From NCBI GenBank assembly GCA_027488755.1, contig JAIYAZ010000158.1, forward strand, positions 1 to 41,714: a stretch of 41,714 nucleotides of DNA, in the 5' to 3' direction. The stretch is from Verrucomicrobiaceae bacterium (GTDB taxonomy: Bacteria > Verrucomicrobiota > Verrucomicrobiia > Chthoniobacterales > JAATET01). The translations under genes were made by a program, and so were the position numbers. The notes below the pieces were generated by a model. The model saw only the letters and a program-made list of their open reading frames with translations. It was not told the origin of the DNA and did no database searches. Positions 14,110 to 21,903 of this stretch are shown here, piece after piece. Numbering within the stretch: position 1 is the first letter of the stretch; each line of letters opens with the position of its first letter.

Positions 14110-15282
14110 CTAGCTGCGGCTGAAATGGGATTCAACCAAGGGTTTGAGGTTGTTTTCGGCGATGCGGATGATGCCGAATTCGCGGGCGGCGTTGTCCGGG
14201 GAGTCGGAGGCGTGGGCGGCGTTGACCATCATGGTCTGGCCGAACTCGCGGCGGATGGTGCCGTGGGGGGCCTTGGAGGGGTCGGTGGGCCCGAGGACCT
14301 GGCGGATTTTGGCGACGGCGTCGACGCCCTGGTAGACGACGGCAACGCATTTTTCGCTGCCGGGGGCGGTGAGGCGGTCGGGGGCGCACTGGCTGGGGCG
14401 GGTGCCGGCCATGAATTGGACGATGTTTTCCCAGTGGGCGCGGGCGGCGATGGGGCCGACGAGGTCGCCGAGGGCGCTTTCGACGGCGTCGGAGAGGGGG
14501 CAGGCGAGTTCCTCCTCGGCGGCGAGGCGGGCGCGGCGGCCGGTGGATTCGCGCATGACGCGCTCGAGGACCTCGAGGACGGGGCCGTAGAACTCGCTGG
14601 CTTCGGCGACGCTCATGTGGTGGACCTTCATGCCGATGATGGAGAGGCCGGTGCGGGAGAAGAGGTCGAGGACGCCGCCGGGGCGGGCGTTGGGGAAGCG
14701 GAAGTTGTCGGGCTTGATGAGGACGAGGGTCTTCTGCACCGCGGCACCGGCGGGGTAGGGGACGATGTCCTCGAGGATGCCGCCGTCGCGGTCGGAGTAT
14801 TCGGCCCAGAGGCGGAGGTCGGTCTCGGCGCGTTCGCGGGTGGGGGCGCAGAGGACGGCGGGCTCGAAGTAGAGCGGGGCGGCTTCGTCGGAGTCGGCCA
14901 CGTAGTCGCCGTAGGTGTCGCGGATGGTCTCGCCGGCGGTGCGGGCGTGGACGATGTGGCCGGCGACGTCGAGGACGGTCTGGACGGCGTTTTCGCCGCG
15001 GAGGACGAGGAGGAGGGTGCGGCGGCGTTTGCCCTCGGCGTTCGGGGCGATGTTGCGGAGGACGTAGGCGCGGATGAGTTCCTGCGTGCGGCGGTGGCGG
15101 GGCTCGGGGTCGGTGACGATGCCGGCGGCGTATTGCTCAATGAGTTCGCGGCTGGGGGCGAACATGCGGGCGGCGACGAGCTCGAGGCCGGAGCGGGAGA
15201 GCAGGCGGGCGAGGATCCCCCCCGTGCGCGATTTGCGAATCGAGTGGGGGGTGATGATGACGTATGCGAGCTCGGAGGCCAT
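14110..15282 (-). CDS. ndk: Tandem-domain nucleoside diphosphate kinase (degenerate N-domain, active-type C-domain)
   Basis: 390 residues, against about 140-150 for ordinary NDK. The C-terminal half (about 183-390) has the NDK signature: K190 in TLVLIKPD, ARPGG, GPTDPSKAPHGTIRREFG and the phosphohistidine H357 in VNAAHASDS. It also has an extra helical insert (about 234-290) and a loop (about 294-311). The N-terminal half (about 5-145) keeps the fold pattern (AYVIITPHSIRKSRTGGI, LLVLRGENAVQTV, GETIRDTYGDYVADSD), but the catalytic Lys is Thr and the His position holds Ala or Asp. The N-domain is therefore probably structural or regulatory. The enzyme should transfer phosphate among NTPs and NDPs. 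Confidence 0.9.
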   Translation of the reverse strand: MASELAYVIITPHSIRKSRTGGILARLLSRSGLELVAARMFAPSRELIEQYAAGIVTDPEPRHRRTQELIRAYVLRNIAPNAEGKRRRTLLLVLRGENAVQTVLDVAGHIVHARTAGETIRDTYGDYVADSDEAAPLYFEPAVLCAPTRERAETDLRLWAEYSDRDGGILEDIVPYPAGAAVQKTLVLIKPDNFRFPNARPGGVLDLFSRTGLSIIGMKVHHMSVAEASEFYGPVLEVLERVMRESTGRRARLAAEEELACPLSDAVESALGDLVGPIAARAHWENIVQFMAGTRPSQCAPDRLTAPGSEKCVAVVYQGVDAVAKIRQVLGPTDPSKAPHGTIRREFGQTMMVNAAHASDSPDNAAREFGIIRIAENNLKPLVESHFSRS

Positions 15283-15921: not shown

Positions 15922-16653
15922 TTAGGGCTTTTTGGTGAAGCGGGTGTTGGCGTGATCCCAGTCAACGACGTTCCACCAGGCGGCGATGTAGTCGGCGCGC
16001 CGGTTCTGGCGTTTGAGGTAGTAGGCGTGTTCCCAGACGTCGATGCCGAGGACGGGGTATTTGCCCGTGGTGAGGGGGCTGTCCTGGTTCGGGGTGGACT
16101 CGATTTCGAGGGCGCCTTCGGGGGTGAGAACGAGCCAGGTCCAGCCGCTACCGAAGACGCTGCCGGCCTCGGCGGAGAATTCCTTTTGGAAGGTGGCAAA
16201 GCTGCCCCATTTTTTCTCGATGGCGTCGGCGAGGGGGCCGCCGGGCGCACCGCCGCCGCCTTTTTTCATCATGGGCCACCAGATGGAGTGGTTGTAGTGG
16301 CCGCCGCCCTGGTTGCGGACGGCTTTGCGGATTTTTTCCGGCACGGCGTTGAGGTCACGGACGAGTTCCTCGACGGATTTGCTGGCGACCTCGGGGTAAT
16401 CGGCGACGGCGGCGTTGAGTTTCGCGACGTAGCCGCCGTGGTGCTTGTCGTGGTGGATGCGCATCGTCTCGGCGTCGATGAACGGCTCGAGGGCATCCGC
16501 GGCGTAGGGCAGCGGGGGGAGGAGGTAGGGGCCGGTGGGCGGGGTGGGGCTCGCGGCGGCGGTGGCCTCGGCGGCGCGGCCGACGAAGGCGGGGATTGCG
16601 AGGGTGGCCCCGGCGGCGAGGGCGGTGCGGAAGGCCTGGCGGCGGGTGATCAT
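15922..16653 (-). CDS. sodA: Tat-exported Mn/Fe superoxide dismutase
   Basis: Dismutates superoxide to peroxide and oxygen. The 243 residues include an export leader: TRRQAFR with twin Arg (R4, R5) and a hydrophobic stretch to the AEA region, so folded, metal-loaded enzyme is sent outside the cytoplasm, and a Pro/Ala linker follows. Metal ligands are H67 (MRIHHDKHH), H122 (GGHYNHS), D205 and H209 (DVWEHAYY). The outer-sphere Gln in PNQDSPL points to the Mn-type. Most bacterial Mn/Fe SODs are cytosolic, so the Tat signal is notable. It follows a Cys-rich mini-lipoprotein gene by 7 bp on the same strand. Confidence 0.94.
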
Positions 16654-16660
16654 GGCGGGG

Positions 16661-16783
16661 TTACTTTTTCGCGGTGGCGGCGGCCGCGTTTGCGCAGCAG
16701 GGGGCGCAGCAGGACTTTTTCGTGGCGCAGCCGATGGAGCCGAGGAGGAGGGCGGAGCCGAGAAGGAGGGCGAGGGTTTTCAT
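16661..16783 (-). CDS. Cys-rich mini-lipoprotein (40 residues)
   Basis: ATG at 16783, stop at 16661. Residues 1-18 are a lipoprotein-type signal ([18 protein letters not shown]), followed by C19. The lipobox is not ideal, with Ser at -3. The mature peptide has only about 22 residues but five Cys including the lipid-bearing one ([12 protein letters not shown]), then an Ala-rich Lys-ended tail. The paired Cys suggest metal binding or redox activity. It precedes sodA by 7 bp and is probably cotranscribed with it. No family is recognised; small CC-x-x-CC exported peptides do occur in PVC bacteria. Confidence 0.65.
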
Positions 16784-16838: not shown

Positions 16839-19235
16839 TCAGGGCAAGGCGGGGGCAAAGCGCATGGGCCAGGCGGACCAGTCGGCGGCGGGGTCGGCGC
16901 GGAGGGAGGCGGGGAGGTTTTCCTGGAGGGCGGTGGTGAGGGCGTCCGCGGCGGGGAGGTTGGCGGCGCGGGCGACTTCGAGGGCCACGCAGAGATCGCC
17001 GAGGTCCTGGGCGGGGCGGAGGGCGGGGGGGAGTTCGGCGCGGCCGGTCCGTTGGAGGCCACGGAGATATTCGGCGAGCGGGACGCCGATGAACCAGTCG
17101 GGGTGCGGGGTGATGACGTGGTGAGAGGCGTTCCATTCCAACCAGCCGTTGGCGAGGGTGATGACGGGGCCGGGGGGCGGGGCTGGCGCGGGGCCCACGG
17201 TGAGCATGGCCACGCCCTCGACGTGGCGGAGGAGCGGGTCGGTGCAGGCGTCGCTGGCGTGCACGCGGGCACAGGCGGCGTCCACGGCCGGCCACTCGAT
17301 TTCGGCGAAGGGGCGTCCGCCGACGAGGGCGATGATGGGCATGGAAACGTAAAAGTCGCCGCGGAGGATCCAGGCGTCGGGGAAGACCGCGCGGAAGGTG
17401 CGCAGGATGGCGTCGAATTGCTCGCGCGTGAGCTGATACATGGGGAGCCATTGGCAGAAGAGGCCGCCGGGTTTGAGGGCGGCGCGGACGCCGACGAAAT
17501 GCTCGCGGGTGAAGAGGCGGCCTTCGCCGGTGTTCCAGGGCAAAAAGAGGTCGCCGGTGATGACGTCGAACTGCGCGGGCCGGCGGGCGATGACGTGGCG
17601 GGCGTCTCCCGGGGTGACGGTGACGCGGGGATCCGCGGCGACGTGGCGGTTGAACTGGGCGAAGCGGTGGCGTGCGTGGTTGAGGACGAGCGGGGAAAGT
17701 TCGATGCCCTCGAGGCGGGCGACGCCGGGGTCGAGCGCGGCGCCGGCGAGGGTGCTGCCGGTAGCGACGCCAAGGGTGGCGACGTCGTGGGCGCGGCCAT
17801 GGAGCAGGACGGGCAGGAGGGCCTGGCGCTCCTGGTTGAGGGCGGCGCGGGAGCCGCCGAGAGTGTAGGTGTTGTTGAGCAGGAGCCGCCAGTCGTCGGG
17901 GCCGCCGGTGACCACGGCGACGACACCCTCGCGGCCGAGGGAGACCTCGGCGAGGCGGTCGCCGTTGAGGAGGCCGGCGAAGGGGAGGCGGGCGTTGATG
18001 AAGGTGGAGGCGGCAACCAGGGCGAGGGCCGTCGGGGCGAGCAGCCAGCGGGCGCGGCCGGGCTGGGCGAGGGCGGTGAGCGCAAAGCCGGCGGCGAGGA
18101 CGGCCATGGCCTGCCAGAGGCCAAAGACGGGGGCGATGACGCGGGCGGTGAGCTCCGCGCCGAGCCAGCCGCCGAGGCCGTTGGCGGCGAGCAGGTGGCC
18201 GGCGTCGATGCCGCGACGGGTGCCCGCGCGCAGGAGGAGCGGAAAGACGAGGGCGGCGGGCAGCAAGGGCAGCGCGAGGGCGGGAAGGCCGAGGGCGAAG
18301 GCGGCGAGCAGGTAGTCCGCGAAGGTTTGATTAAAGGGCAGGTAGTGCACGCCGCCGCGTTGGAGGACGAGGAGGAGGGGCTGCGCGGCGAGGGCCACGG
18401 CGGCGAGGATTAGGATGAGCGGGAGCGCGGGGCCGCCGAGGCGGGCGGCGAGGGGCGTGAGGAACGCGCCGAGGCCCAGCACGGCGAGCACGAGGGCGAG
18501 GACGAGCGCGCTGGAGAAATGGGCGCTGAGGAGGAACTGCGCGAACTGGTGTTGGAGGACGACCTCGACGCCGAGGACGAGGAAGCCGGAGGCGAAGGCG
18601 GTGAGGGCCATCGTGGTCGGGGCGGCCGGGGAGGAGCGCGGCGCGACGACGGGCGCGACCGGGCGGGCATCGGGCAGGAAAGCGGCGACGAGGGCGACGG
18701 CGAAGTTCAGCGCGATGGCGAGGAAGGACGCGCCGGCAAAGCCGAGCTGGGGCAGCGCCCAGCCGAGCACGAGAAGGATGCCGGCGATGCCGCCGAGGGT
18801 GTTCACGGCGTAGAGCGGGACGGCGAGGCGGGGGCCGGTGGCGCGGATCATCCACGGGATGACGACGCCCATGGCGAAGGCGGGCGGCGCGATAAGGAGG
18901 GCGGGGAGGATCCACGCGAAGAGGCCGGCAAACAGACCCTCCGCGGGCAGGGTGAGGGCGATTTGCCCGGTGAGAAAGACGCCGAGCGCGAGGGCGGCCA
19001 CGGCGGCTTCGGCCCGGGCGACGCTGCGCCAGGGGCGGGGCGTGGCGCGGCGGGCGGCGAAGAAGGCGCCGAGCGAGAGGCCGAGGAAGAAGGCGGCGAT
19101 GACGCGCGAGAAGGTGCCGGCATCCGCGCCGAGGATGTCCACGAGTCGCCGCATCCAGAGGAGCTGGTGGGCGAGGCCGGCCGCGCCGCTTGCGGCGGCG
19201 AGGGCGAGGACCAGCGCGGGGCGGGCTCGATTCAT
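16839..19235 (-). CDS. Membrane-fused spermidine-synthase-like protein
   Basis: 798 residues. The N-terminal part (to about 440) has many transmembrane helices in the MFS-like arrangement of fused MFS/spermidine synthase proteins (GAAGLAHQLLWMRRLVDILG, FFLGLSLGAF). A Rossmann aminopropyltransferase-like domain follows (about 440-690): GVATGSTLAGAAL at about 485, IELSPLVLNHAR, and DVITGDLFLPWNTGEGRLFTREHF at about 560. The usual GGGDG is replaced by GVATGS, so the co-substrate or reaction may differ from true spermidine synthase. A C-terminal tail of about 100 residues is extra. The start overlaps the stop of the upstream PEP-CTERM gene by 4 bp, so it is part of that operon. Confidence 0.85.
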   Translation of the reverse strand: MNRARPALVLALAAASGAAGLAHQLLWMRRLVDILGADAGTFSRVIAAFFLGLSLGAFFAARRATPRPWRSVARAEAAVAALALGVFLTGQIALTLPAEGLFAGLFAWILPALLIAPPAFAMGVVIPWMIRATGPRLAVPLYAVNTLGGIAGILLVLGWALPQLGFAGASFLAIALNFAVALVAAFLPDARPVAPVVAPRSSPAAPTTMALTAFASGFLVLGVEVVLQHQFAQFLLSAHFSSALVLALVLAVLGLGAFLTPLAARLGGPALPLILILAAVALAAQPLLLVLQRGGVHYLPFNQTFADYLLAAFALGLPALALPLLPAALVFPLLLRAGTRRGIDAGHLLAANGLGGWLGAELTARVIAPVFGLWQAMAVLAAGFALTALAQPGRARWLLAPTALALVAASTFINARLPFAGLLNGDRLAEVSLGREGVVAVVTGGPDDWRLLLNNTYTLGGSRAALNQERQALLPVLLHGRAHDVATLGVATGSTLAGAALDPGVARLEGIELSPLVLNHARHRFAQFNRHVAADPRVTVTPGDARHVIARRPAQFDVITGDLFLPWNTGEGRLFTREHFVGVRAALKPGGLFCQWLPMYQLTREQFDAILRTFRAVFPDAWILRGDFYVSMPIIALVGGRPFAEIEWPAVDAACARVHASDACTDPLLRHVEGVAMLTVGPAPAPPPGPVITLANGWLEWNASHHVITPHPDWFIGVPLAEYLRGLQRTGRAELPPALRPAQDLGDLCVALEVARAANLPAADALTTALQENLPASLRADPAADWSAWPMRFAPALP

Positions 19236-19960
19236 GCGCGGCGGCGGAGTCGGCCGAGAACCAAGGCTGCGCCGGCGAGGGCGAGCAGGCCGAGGACGCC
19301 GGGCTCGGGGATGGCGACGAAGGTGAGGGTGTAGTCCGGGCTGGAGTTGTGGAAGGCGGAGCCGCCGGGGCCGGTGGTGCCGAGGTCGACGAGGCGGAAG
19401 GTGACCTGGTAGGTGCCGGGGGCGGTGGCGGTCCAGCCGCGGTCGTGAATGTGACCGTAGGGGTCCTCGGTGGGGTCGCCGGGGACAATGGGCTCGCTGA
19501 GGATGAAGCGGAAGTTGCCGGTGGGGGCGTTGGTGGCGAAGGAGGCGGTGGGCGTGGAGTGGGTGTAGGACCAGGTTTCGTCCCAGAAGCCGAACTGGCC
19601 GCCGGTGGGGCCGAGGACGCTGCGGATTTCCATCCAGAGTTGCGAGCCGGTGTGGGCGGCGCGGGGGTCGGCGACTTCGGCCTGGCCGTCGGAGAGGGCG
19701 GTGAAGGTGAAGTAGTCGTTCGGGAATTGGGTGCGCGGGAATTCGGTGAGCGAGAGGTAGCCGGCGTAGTTGCCGGTGGGGCGGGGCAGGAGGGTGAAGG
19801 TGGCGTTGGCGGCCGGGGGGTTGACGAGGCGGAGGGGTTCGCCGGCGTCGGGCTGGCCGTTGCCGTTGGCGTCGAAGAAGCCGGCGGCGAGGTGCTGGTG
19901 GGCGTGGGCCGCGACCGCCAGGGCGGCGGTCGCGGTGAGGAGGGCGAGGGAGCGTTTCAC
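19232..19960 (-). CDS. PEP-CTERM surface protein with Gly-His-Ile-His motif (second of two)
   Basis: 242 residues. A signal peptide (1-19) is followed by a His-rich start (AHAHQHLAAGFFDANGNGQPDAGEPL). The body contains FTALSDGQ, GPTGGQFGFWDE and EDPYGHIHDRGWTATAPGTYQVTFRL. The C-terminus is a PEP-CTERM sorting signal: IPEPGVLGLLALAGAAL, then RLRRRA. Exosortase-dependent transfer to the envelope is expected for such tails. The body aligns with its upstream neighbour, so the two are tandem paralogues. The HxH plus aromatic-Thr plus PGTY pattern recalls the 'surface-anchored protein'/choice-of-anchor M domains that sit beside metal transporters; this is from memory. Overlaps both neighbours by 4 bp. 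Confidence 0.85.
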   Translation of the reverse strand: MKRSLALLTATAALAVAAHAHQHLAAGFFDANGNGQPDAGEPLRLVNPPAANATFTLLPRPTGNYAGYLSLTEFPRTQFPNDYFTFTALSDGQAEVADPRAAHTGSQLWMEIRSVLGPTGGQFGFWDETWSYTHSTPTASFATNAPTGNFRFILSEPIVPGDPTEDPYGHIHDRGWTATAPGTYQVTFRLVDLGTTGPGGSAFHNSSPDYTLTFVAIPEPGVLGLLALAGAALVLGRLRRRA

Positions 19961-20754
19961 GACTGGGCGGCGCGCCGGCGGCGCAGGAAGATGAAGCCGA
20001 TGAGGCCGACGAGGGCGAGCAGGGCCACGGTGCCGGGCTCGGGCACGGCGTTGTAGGTGACAGTGAAGGCGGCGCTGTCGGGGTGGATGCCGTTAATGTC
20101 CTTGAGGACGTAGCTGACCGTGTAGGTGCCGACTTGATCCATCGTGAAGCTGCGGCCGTGGATGTGGCCGTAGGGATCGTTCGACGGCGTGCGGCCGTTG
20201 GGCGTGGTGGGATTCGGCGTGACGCCGTCGCCGAAGAACACGGCCTCCGCGGGGTAGGACGTGCCGTCGCTGGTGAGGTCGAAGCGGCCGGTGCCGAGGG
20301 TGAGGCCGGTGCCGAGGGTGTAGGTGGCCGTGGGCGTGAGGGCGCCGGAATCCCAGAAGCTGAACTTCGCGCCGCTGGGGCCGGTGATGCCCGCGATCTC
20401 GACCTGGAGGAAGGATCCGGCGGTGGCGGCGTAGGGGTTCGCGGCGATGTAGGCGCTGCCTTCCCACGCGAAGCCGGTTTTGGACAGCGCGGTGAAGGTT
20501 GGGCCGCTGCTGCGGAAGAGGCCTTGCTGCGCGTTGCCCACGGTGGTGATGAGGGTGGCGTTCAGGCTGAGGCTGGTGACGGCGACGCCGGTGGTGTTGC
20601 TGACAAACGAGAGGGCGTCGCCGGCCTGGAGGCCGGGGGTGCCGTTCGTGTCGATGATGCCGCCGTAGACGTGGCCGGCGCGGGCCGGGTTGGCGGCGAG
20701 GAGGAGCGCCGCGAGGGCGCCGGGAAGGAGGGTGAAACGAGCGAGAGTTTTCAT
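19957..20754 (-). CDS. PEP-CTERM surface protein with Gly-His-Ile-His motif (first of two)
   Basis: 265 residues. A signal peptide (1-26) is followed by AGHVYGGIIDTNGTPGLQAG, which matches the mature start of its paralogue. Shared elements are FTALS, GPSGAKFSFWDSG, NDPYGHIHGRSFT and VGTYTVSYVLKD. The tail is a textbook PEP-CTERM: AVPEPGTVALLALVGLIGF then LRRRRAAQS. It lacks the HAHQH start of the second copy. It begins 18 bp after the pseudopilin gene and overlaps the next PEP-CTERM gene by 4 bp, so one mRNA is likely. No exosortase gene is in the window. Confidence 0.87.
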   Translation of the reverse strand: MKTLARFTLLPGALAALLLAANPARAGHVYGGIIDTNGTPGLQAGDALSFVSNTTGVAVTSLSLNATLITTVGNAQQGLFRSSGPTFTALSKTGFAWEGSAYIAANPYAATAGSFLQVEIAGITGPSGAKFSFWDSGALTPTATYTLGTGLTLGTGRFDLTSDGTSYPAEAVFFGDGVTPNPTTPNGRTPSNDPYGHIHGRSFTMDQVGTYTVSYVLKDINGIHPDSAAFTVTYNAVPEPGTVALLALVGLIGFIFLRRRRAAQS

Positions 20755-20772
20755 TTTCGGAAGTGAGTTTTT

Positions 20773-21468
20773 TTATTGGGTGGGGTCCACGAAGCGGTTG
20801 CCGGGTTCGGCAAGGCGCGCGCGGGCCTGGGTCCACGGGAGGTGTTCCACGTGGCCGTCGGCAAAGAGGTAGTTGGCGCCGTGGCGGTGCCGCTCGACGT
20901 CGACCTGGCCCGCGAAGATGCCCGCGGGCAGGGATCCGCCGCGGTAGGCGGCGAAGTGGAAGTGGTCGGAGTTGAGGTCGGGCACGGCTTCGGCGAAGAG
21001 CAGGGTCGCGCCGGGGCGGTCGAGCCGGCTGAGGCGCGAGAAGTTGAGGTCGGCGGCGCCGGAGGGGTTCGGGGTAAGGAAGTCGTTGAGCACGTAGGAA
21101 TACGCGGACTCCCGGTCGGGGTCGGACGGGCAGCGAAAGCTGATGGTGCCGCTGGCGTAGGGCTGGAGCGAGATGGTCCATGACTTGAGCCCGGCGCGGC
21201 GCTGGTGCGTCGTGGCGGGGAGGGTCATGTCGTTGTCGGCAGCGTAGGCCATGGTGGCGGCGCCGATGCCGCGCAGGTTCGCGAGGCACTGGGTGCTGCG
21301 CGCGCGGGCGACGGCGTCGTTCCAGGCGACGGCCGAGAGACTGAGCAGCACGGCGCCGATGACGACGACGGCCAGCAATTCGATGAGCGTGAAAGCGCGG
21401 GCTTTCGCGGGATGGGTCACGATCCGAGATTTTCCGTTCCGCCGGGTGCGGCGGAGATTTCCGAACAA
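20773..21468 (-). CDS. Pseudopilin-like protein with H-X9-DG C-terminal motif
   Basis: 231 residues from ATG 21468; an alternative is GTG 21420. A type IV pilin N-terminal motif, FTLIELLAVVVIGAVLLSLSAVAW, begins at residue 26, preceded by Ala instead of the usual Gly at the cleavage site. The rest fits the Verrucomicrobia/Planctomycetes type II secretion-like pseudopilins: CLANLRGIGAATMAYAADND, and near the end the H-X9-DG motif in HRHGANYLFADGHVEHLPW. Such proteins occur in many copies in this phylum, often beside substrates or surface proteins. It heads the four-gene unit with the two PEP-CTERM genes and the synthase fusion. Confidence 0.88.
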   Translation of the reverse strand: MFGNLRRTRRNGKSRIVTHPAKARAFTLIELLAVVVIGAVLLSLSAVAWNDAVARARSTQCLANLRGIGAATMAYAADNDMTLPATTHQRRAGLKSWTISLQPYASGTISFRCPSDPDRESAYSYVLNDFLTPNPSGAADLNFSRLSRLDRPGATLLFAEAVPDLNSDHFHFAAYRGGSLPAGIFAGQVDVERHRHGANYLFADGHVEHLPWTQARARLAEPGNRFVDPTQ

Positions 21469-21513: not shown

Positions 21514-21903
21514 CTAGGAGAGGGCGCGGATCGGAACCGGCTGGGGCGGAGCGTCGGAGCGGAGGGGGAAGGCGGCCGGCGCGGGGGCCGGGTAGCGGAA
21601 GCGGTCGGGGGCGGGGTGGCGGAGGGCGACGACGGGCGCGGGTGCGGCGAGATCGGTTTTCACCTCGGCCTTGAGGGCGGCGGGTTTGCGGTCCTCCTTC
21701 TGGCGGGCCTCGGCGATCGTTTTGCACATGCCGCAGGGGTATTTGCCGCTGAAGGTTTTTTGGACGGCGGTGGAGAAGGAGGCGTCGCGGGAGTAGTCGG
21801 CGAGCATCTGGCCCCAGGCGACGGACTGGAGCACGGCCCAGTGGCCGCCCGCGATCGCGAAGAGCGCGAGCGCCGCCAGGAGGAGGCCGAGTTGCCGGAA
21901 CAT
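21514..21903 (-). CDS. Small secreted CxxC protein of unknown function
   Basis: 129 residues from ATG 21903, which lies 7 bp after the prmA stop. A signal peptide or anchor (1-20) leads to QSVAWGQMLADYSRDASFSTAVQKTFSGKYPCGMCKTIAEARQKED, with a CxxC pair (C57, C60), then a disordered Pro/Ala-rich tail. From memory, similar short exported proteins with a conserved TFSGxxPCxLCxxI core occur in Verrucomicrobia; the function is unknown, and a metal or thiol-redox role is only a guess from CxxC. It lies between prmA and the pseudopilin/PEP-CTERM unit (45-bp gap). Confidence 0.65.
   Translation of the reverse strand: MFRQLGLLLAALALFAIAGGHWAVLQSVAWGQMLADYSRDASFSTAVQKTFSGKYPCGMCKTIAEARQKEDRKPAALKAEVKTDLAAPAPVVALRHPAPDRFRYPAPAPAAFPLRSDAPPQPVPIRALS

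Follow-up and report, generated by a model that had tools for sequence, protein, structure and literature searches.

Organization of the gene cluster

The window, a whole contig of 41,714 nucleotides from a Verrucomicrobiaceae bacterium, carries on its minus strand four open reading frames that the original prediction had described as almost surely one transcript: an H-X9-DG pseudopilin, two PEP-CTERM proteins (here called GHIH proteins A and B), and a membrane protein fused to a spermidine-synthase-like domain. All four were present as claimed, with an 18-bp gap between the pseudopilin and protein A and 4-bp overlaps at the A/B and B/fused-protein junctions, and by their gene anatomy they are best taken as one operon. 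What had been missed is a fifth and more conserved member, a small gene with a CXXC motif that lies directly upstream. The features of the locus, from upstream to downstream, are the following.

21514..21903, minus strand: small putative exported leader of 129 amino acids ('CxMC' family), with CXXC and proline-rich tail
21724..21735, minus strand: CXXC motif of the leader, CGMC, residues 57-60, putative copper site; both cysteines invariant in 31 aligned members
21526..21552, minus strand: proline-rich tail of the leader (APPQPVPIR at residues 118-126), a candidate arrest motif; all 31 aligned members have P124
21421..21513, minus strand: 93-nt structured intergenic region from leader to pseudopilin; RNA fold z -3.0
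20773..21420, minus strand: H-X9-DG (DUF1559-type) pseudopilin, alternative TTG start at 21468; N_methyl, SBP_bac_10 and H-X9-DG matches above their cut-offs
19957..20754, minus strand: GHIH protein A (PEP-CTERM A); TIGR02595 29.1 bits, GHIH family alignment
19232..19960, minus strand: GHIH protein B (PEP-CTERM B), GTG start; TIGR02595 17.1 bits, invariant H23, H170 and H172
16839..19235, minus strand: membrane protein fused to a degenerate spermidine-synthase-like domain (accessory); PF01564 41 bits
16661..16783, minus strand: small Cys-rich lipoprotein-like ORF, possible operon tail; gene call only
15922..16653, minus strand: Fe/Mn superoxide dismutase with a Tat-like N terminus, possible operon tail; PF02777 138 bits, PF00081 97 bits

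The pseudopilin scored 22.7 bits against TIGR04294 (cut-off 19) and 26.9 bits against N_methyl (cut-off 21.2). Its start is probably the GTG at 21420 and not the TTG at 21468, since the prepilin leader then has its usual short length (VTHPAKARA/FTLIEL). The two PEP-CTERM proteins had been called paralogues, and indeed protein A retrieves protein B with 39% identity (E 2.5e-19). Both carry a PEP-CTERM signal above the TIGR02595 cut-off of 16 bits, and exosortase genes are present in the window genome (G000) as well as in the genomes G001 to G003.

The conserved unit at GHIH loci

GHIH proteins are rare, with 8 found at E < 1e-6 in a sample of 387 Verrucomicrobiota genomes. A profile search of genome contigs with a narrower GHIH alignment gave 5 loci, and 17 GHIH-gene loci were compared at the ORF level. 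Since the loci were chosen by GHIH similarity and two of them (L033 and L062) are close relatives, the counts that follow describe architecture and not independent events. A pseudopilin adjoins the GHIH gene at every one of the 17 loci and the small upstream CXXC gene is found at 16, so that GHIH, pseudopilin and leader occur together in 16/17 loci, in several families and with differing flanks. The synthase fusion is intact at two loci, the window and its congener G003 (a Terrimicrobiaceae metagenome assembly), and decayed in G017; it is absent from the other genomes tested. The fused synthase does not hold up as a defining partner. The quartet itself is not the conserved unit, and the fused synthase is an occasional passenger that is dispensable for the module.

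Several loci contain genes of metal metabolism. CusF, with Pfam support, is encoded in three GHIH operons, in two of which a TonB receptor gene is also in line, and a gene for a heavy-metal-type RND pump lies beside the GHIH locus of G017. Moreover, 11 of the 17 loci encode a surface protein family that we named GRDFG after its motif AHxxYxGRDFG, in which the histidine directly follows the signal peptide. This family (L033 10394-11164 and 10 relatives) mostly carries PEP-CTERM signals and has an invariant A24-H25 and an invariant histidine in GDSH; no informative family match was found for it. The mature N-terminal histidine is reminiscent of copper histidine-brace proteins.

The upstream gene belongs to a widespread leader family

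A profile search recovered the leader family in 96 of the 387 sampled Verrucomicrobiota genomes. Its members are about 130 amino acids long and have a hydrophobic N terminus in the alignment; CXXC is present in all 57 distinct members, and PP lies within the last 16 residues in 55 of them. The window leader has a hydrophobic start, the segment YPCGMC and the tail APPQPVPIRALS, which deviates (APPQPVPIR) from the consensus APPxPPPR of the 31-member alignment. CXXC and tail are separated by 58 residues in the window leader and by 54-68 residues in the family. The leader begins 7 bp after prmA, so it may lack a promoter of its own.

Across 38 loci, the gene behind the leader mostly follows at 110-230 nt, and in the window it follows at 93 nt. 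Folding is stronger in 47 of these gaps than in 121 control gaps taken from the same loci (Mann-Whitney p 3e-4). In the window, a predicted stem pairs the last leader codons with the region of the pseudopilin GTG start. Most of 13 loci showed more pairing between leader end and downstream start than their shuffles did on average, yet this post hoc signal is weak per locus, being matched by 2 to 37 of 60 shuffles, and we regard such base pairing as suggestive only.

To what kind of genes the leader is linked was assessed with Pfam for 82 proteins encoded downstream of it in other genomes. These included 25 TonB receptors, 8 PepSY_TM proteins, 6 CusF, 3 SCO1, 2 NosL and 1 CusB-like protein, and these partner families match those reported for CruR and CutF-like leaders (PMC9426467, PMC9973294). 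Among 68 genes upstream of the leader, none of these families had at least two members; one upstream gene, in L134, matched a CusF profile of our own. A TonB partner is not obligatory, since G003 has the module while no TonB receptor was found in that genome. In the window genome no CusF was found, and its single TonB receptor is encoded on another contig (L149 1385-3523, contig 41), where by eye the gene stands divergently beside an ExbB/MotA-like gene.

We consider the small CXXC gene the best clue to the function of the locus, and it points to copper over zinc or manganese. From its anatomy and context, the family appears to be an undescribed group of putative copper-sensing leaders.

Comparison with CruR and CutF leaders

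Two described systems resemble the leader. In the CruR-BfrG/CrtA-PepSY_TM system of Bordetella pertussis (PMC9426467, PMC12914433), the first ORF is exported, as the leader would be. Like the leader, it is short, has a CXXC followed at an almost constant spacing by a proline-rich motif near the C terminus, and is separated from the next gene by a long gap (162 nt between cruR and bfrG; PMC9426467). TonB receptor and PepSY_TM partners, as found for the leader in many Verrucomicrobiota loci, are a further likeness. The differences are the motif, RAPP versus APPxPPPR, the spacing, about 45 versus about 60 residues, and the fact that CruR heads a TonB receptor gene whereas the window leader heads surface-protein genes. 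Ribosome stalling at RAPP allows transcription of the CruR operon to continue, and copper on CXXC relieves the stall, which results in Rho termination (PMC9426467); the arrest was later demonstrated in vitro (PMC12992588).

The second system, CutF and CutF-like proteins (Rhodobacter capsulatus; PMC9973294), shares with the leader a length below 150 amino acids, a Cys motif, PP near the C terminus, a structured gap before the next gene, and CusF, RND or TonB neighbours; the hydrophobic N terminus of the leader family may correspond to the signal peptide of CutF-like proteins. The filters used for CutF-like proteins (<150 amino acids, PP among the last 15 residues, a gene on the same strand no more than 1000 nt away; PMC9973294) also capture the window leader, with its 129 residues, PP at residues 119-120 and gap of 93 nt. 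CutF differs in having CxxxC instead of CXXC, and in the multicopper oxidase downstream of it, which is not found downstream of the leader. In CutF, copper promotes stalling and unfolds the stem that masks the following ribosome-binding site; expression rises in copper (PMC9973294).

Membership of the leader in DUF2946, the family of CruR, was considered and rejected. PF11162 matched none of 11 leader members and nothing in a whole-genome search of G000, and profile homology to DUF2946 was likewise discarded at an hhalign probability of 0.9%. True DUF2946 proteins of this phylum have RAPP or RGPP at 41-46 residues from CXXC. Such CruR-type proteins with RAPP/RGPP (L152-L162) are found elsewhere in the Verrucomicrobiota, for the most part in classes that differ from those of the CXXC leader family. 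Because the leader has neither Pfam nor profile homology to DUF2946, the analogy with CruR rests on anatomy and context; the leader looks like a copper leader by its anatomy, and descent from DUF2946 is without support.

Conserved histidines in the GHIH proteins

Conservation of the GHxH histidines, as originally proposed, was borne out in an alignment of 19 GHIH relatives from several families, in which H23, a GP.G....FW block and H170-x-H172-x-R are invariant. H23 adjoins the expected signal cleavage site and would therefore lie near the mature N terminus. Certain relatives have a different C-terminal extension in place of PEP-CTERM. In the congener G002 the GHIH pair forms one continuous ORF of 530 amino acids (L030 8824-10416). 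Its internal PEP-CTERM signal would fall between the two domains, which could reflect either a fusion or a lost stop.

Profile comparison with hhalign aligned the GHIH family with choice-of-anchor M proteins (97.6%, E 3e-12), with HxH on HxH. Protein B scored 16.5 bits against the choice-of-anchor M model NF038134 (cut-off 55), and 17.4 bits against the ZepA model NF040463 (cut-off 75), the latter at the C-terminal end only. Choice-of-anchor M proteins share with GHIH a signal peptide, a beta-rich domain, one N-terminal histidine, and a later His-x-His and G-x-Y, and in this phylum they are often paired with an H-X9-DG pseudopilin; unlike them, GHIH has its own motifs GP.G....FW and G-H-x-H-x-R. 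ZepA/All3515 (NF040463) resembles GHIH as a secreted PEP-CTERM protein with conserved histidines and a metal context, but its H-X2-9-H-[FY]-H motif is absent from GHIH sequences. The GHIH proteins are a divergent branch related to the choice-of-anchor M surface proteins. An AlphaFold model of protein B was beta-rich and of fair confidence (pLDDT 72, pTM 0.70), and a fold search with it against the PDB gave no convincing match (best E 1.6e-3, low TM). The model of protein A was too poor for use (pLDDT 61).

A putative copper-responsive surface module

The original prediction had suggested metal binding at the cell surface, and surface metal handling finds support in the genes that surround members of the leader family and in the kinship with choice-of-anchor M proteins. 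On balance, we lean towards a copper-responsive surface metal-binding module of Verrucomicrobiota that is controlled by leader-peptide arrest. The first gene would give a short, presumably exported leader, and its nascent chain may sense copper through CXXC. Ribosomes would stall at the proline-rich tail, and copper would thereby alter downstream expression, in a manner comparable to CruR of Bordetella or CutF of Rhodobacter. The genes under this putative control would supply the cell surface with the pseudopilin and with one or two GHIH proteins sorted by exosortase; there, GHIH might bind copper via the near-N-terminal histidine and His-x-His, either for capture and hand-over or as a buffer. 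We favour a role in copper supply that would be switched off by copper, because in other genomes it is TonB receptors and PepSY_TM proteins that most often accompany the leader. These partners also favour control in the sense of CruR, although we leave the choice between the CruR and CutF modes undecided. Copper is favoured as the metal on account of the leader partners, the CusF genes in three GHIH operons and the RND pump beside the G017 locus.

Little is understood so far of how copper is taken up across the outer membrane, and most documented copper-sensing nascent chains come from Pseudomonadota. A more far-reaching version, which we put forward as a tentative possibility, is that the locus represents an undescribed form of copper acquisition, in which a new arrest-peptide family controls a pseudopilin and N-terminal-His copper proteins (GHIH, GRDFG) that partly replace the TonB receptor as the first capture point. 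If the copper module is real, leader-peptide metal sensing extends to another phylum and several unnamed surface-protein families gain a function. A separate leader family with a matching anatomy, carried by roughly one in four of the sampled Verrucomicrobiota genomes, would also provide a test for multiple origins of metal-sensing arrest peptides. A literature search found no link of H-X9-DG pseudopilins or DUF1559 with copper, which is weak evidence given the limited coverage of that search.

The main rival metal is zinc. A zinc/ZepA function, based on the weak NF040463 match, was the first reading and was demoted in view of the leader's context. It would make the locus a device for surface capture of zinc (or manganese), with GHIH as zinc-binding exoproteins like ZepA/All3515 or choice-of-anchor M, in a Zur-type response. 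ZepA is a zinc-binding protein that is found in the PVC group (PMC10957091), and the matches of protein B to NF040463 and NF038134, together with the profile kinship to choice-of-anchor M, point in this direction, as does a COG0523 gene that neighbours the module in G027 and lies at a distance of about 6 kb in G173. However, both matches are far below their cut-offs, the ZepA histidine motif is missing, the COG0523 gene of G027 is convergent and stands beside a separate choice-of-anchor M/pseudopilin set, and the partners of the leader family are of the copper type and not of the zinc type, so that we consider a zinc function rather unlikely. In G027 (L035 6697-14156), a leader/GRDFG/pseudopilin/GHIH module is convergent to the COG0523 gene and to a pseudopilin/choice-of-anchor M pair distinct from it, an arrangement that suggests parallel modules for two metals, possibly copper and zinc, side by side.

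Alternatively, the module could be induced by copper, as with CutF, and serve efflux or protection. The surface proteins would then buffer copper outside the cell, and the nearby superoxide dismutase would belong to the response. The RND pump beside the G017 locus, CusF at three loci, and the superoxide dismutase gene downstream in both the window and G001, where it directly follows the GHIH gene, would fit this. Yet the superoxide dismutase is downstream in only two of the four genus members, and the commonest leader partners, TonB receptors and PepSY_TM proteins, fit uptake (PMC12914433), which makes a protective role unlikely in our view.

H-X9-DG pseudopilins and PEP-CTERM proteins are abundant in this phylum, and all functional claims made here rest on sequence and context. 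The locus might accordingly be an ordinary surface cluster without a metal role, with leader and surface genes being neighbours by descent only. This seems improbable, considering that the pairing with the leader is kept in 16/17 loci with different flanks and that CusF is present in three of the operons.

The synthase fusion and other neighbouring genes

Returning to the fourth gene of the operon, the fused protein passes Pfam PF01564 and reaches 35 bits with the fused MFS/spermidine synthase model NF037959, below the cut-off of 40. It shares with that family a membrane region and a C-terminal PF01564 domain, and differs in its degenerate active site and its location in an operon with exosortase substrates. 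In an alignment with E. coli SpeE, GVATG replaces GGGDG and DLFLP replaces DCTDP (the D-x-x-D-P site); of the two aspartates in the active site of genuine spermidine synthases, one is missing. With both motifs replaced, normal aminopropyl transfer is unlikely. The remnant in G017 (L032 8000-8330) lies directly downstream of the GHIH gene and has kept pieces of its end but lost internal sequence; a decayed copy in the same place argues that the synthase linkage is older than the genus of the window. That the quartet is a working unit, with the synthase-like membrane protein making or exporting a small molecule for the surface proteins to use, is the least probable reading despite the 4-bp overlap with protein B, the 63% orthologue in the same place in G003 and the decayed G017 copy, given the loss of GGGDG and of the second active-site Asp and the absence of the fusion from the other GHIH genomes tested.

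The small Cys-rich ORF downstream of the synthase fusion (16661..16783) had no Pfam match. Elsewhere in the window, at 14110-15282, lies a gene for a protein of 390 amino acids that matches nucleoside diphosphate kinase over four separate segments; it is unusually long for this family and is conserved in G001 with 80% identity.
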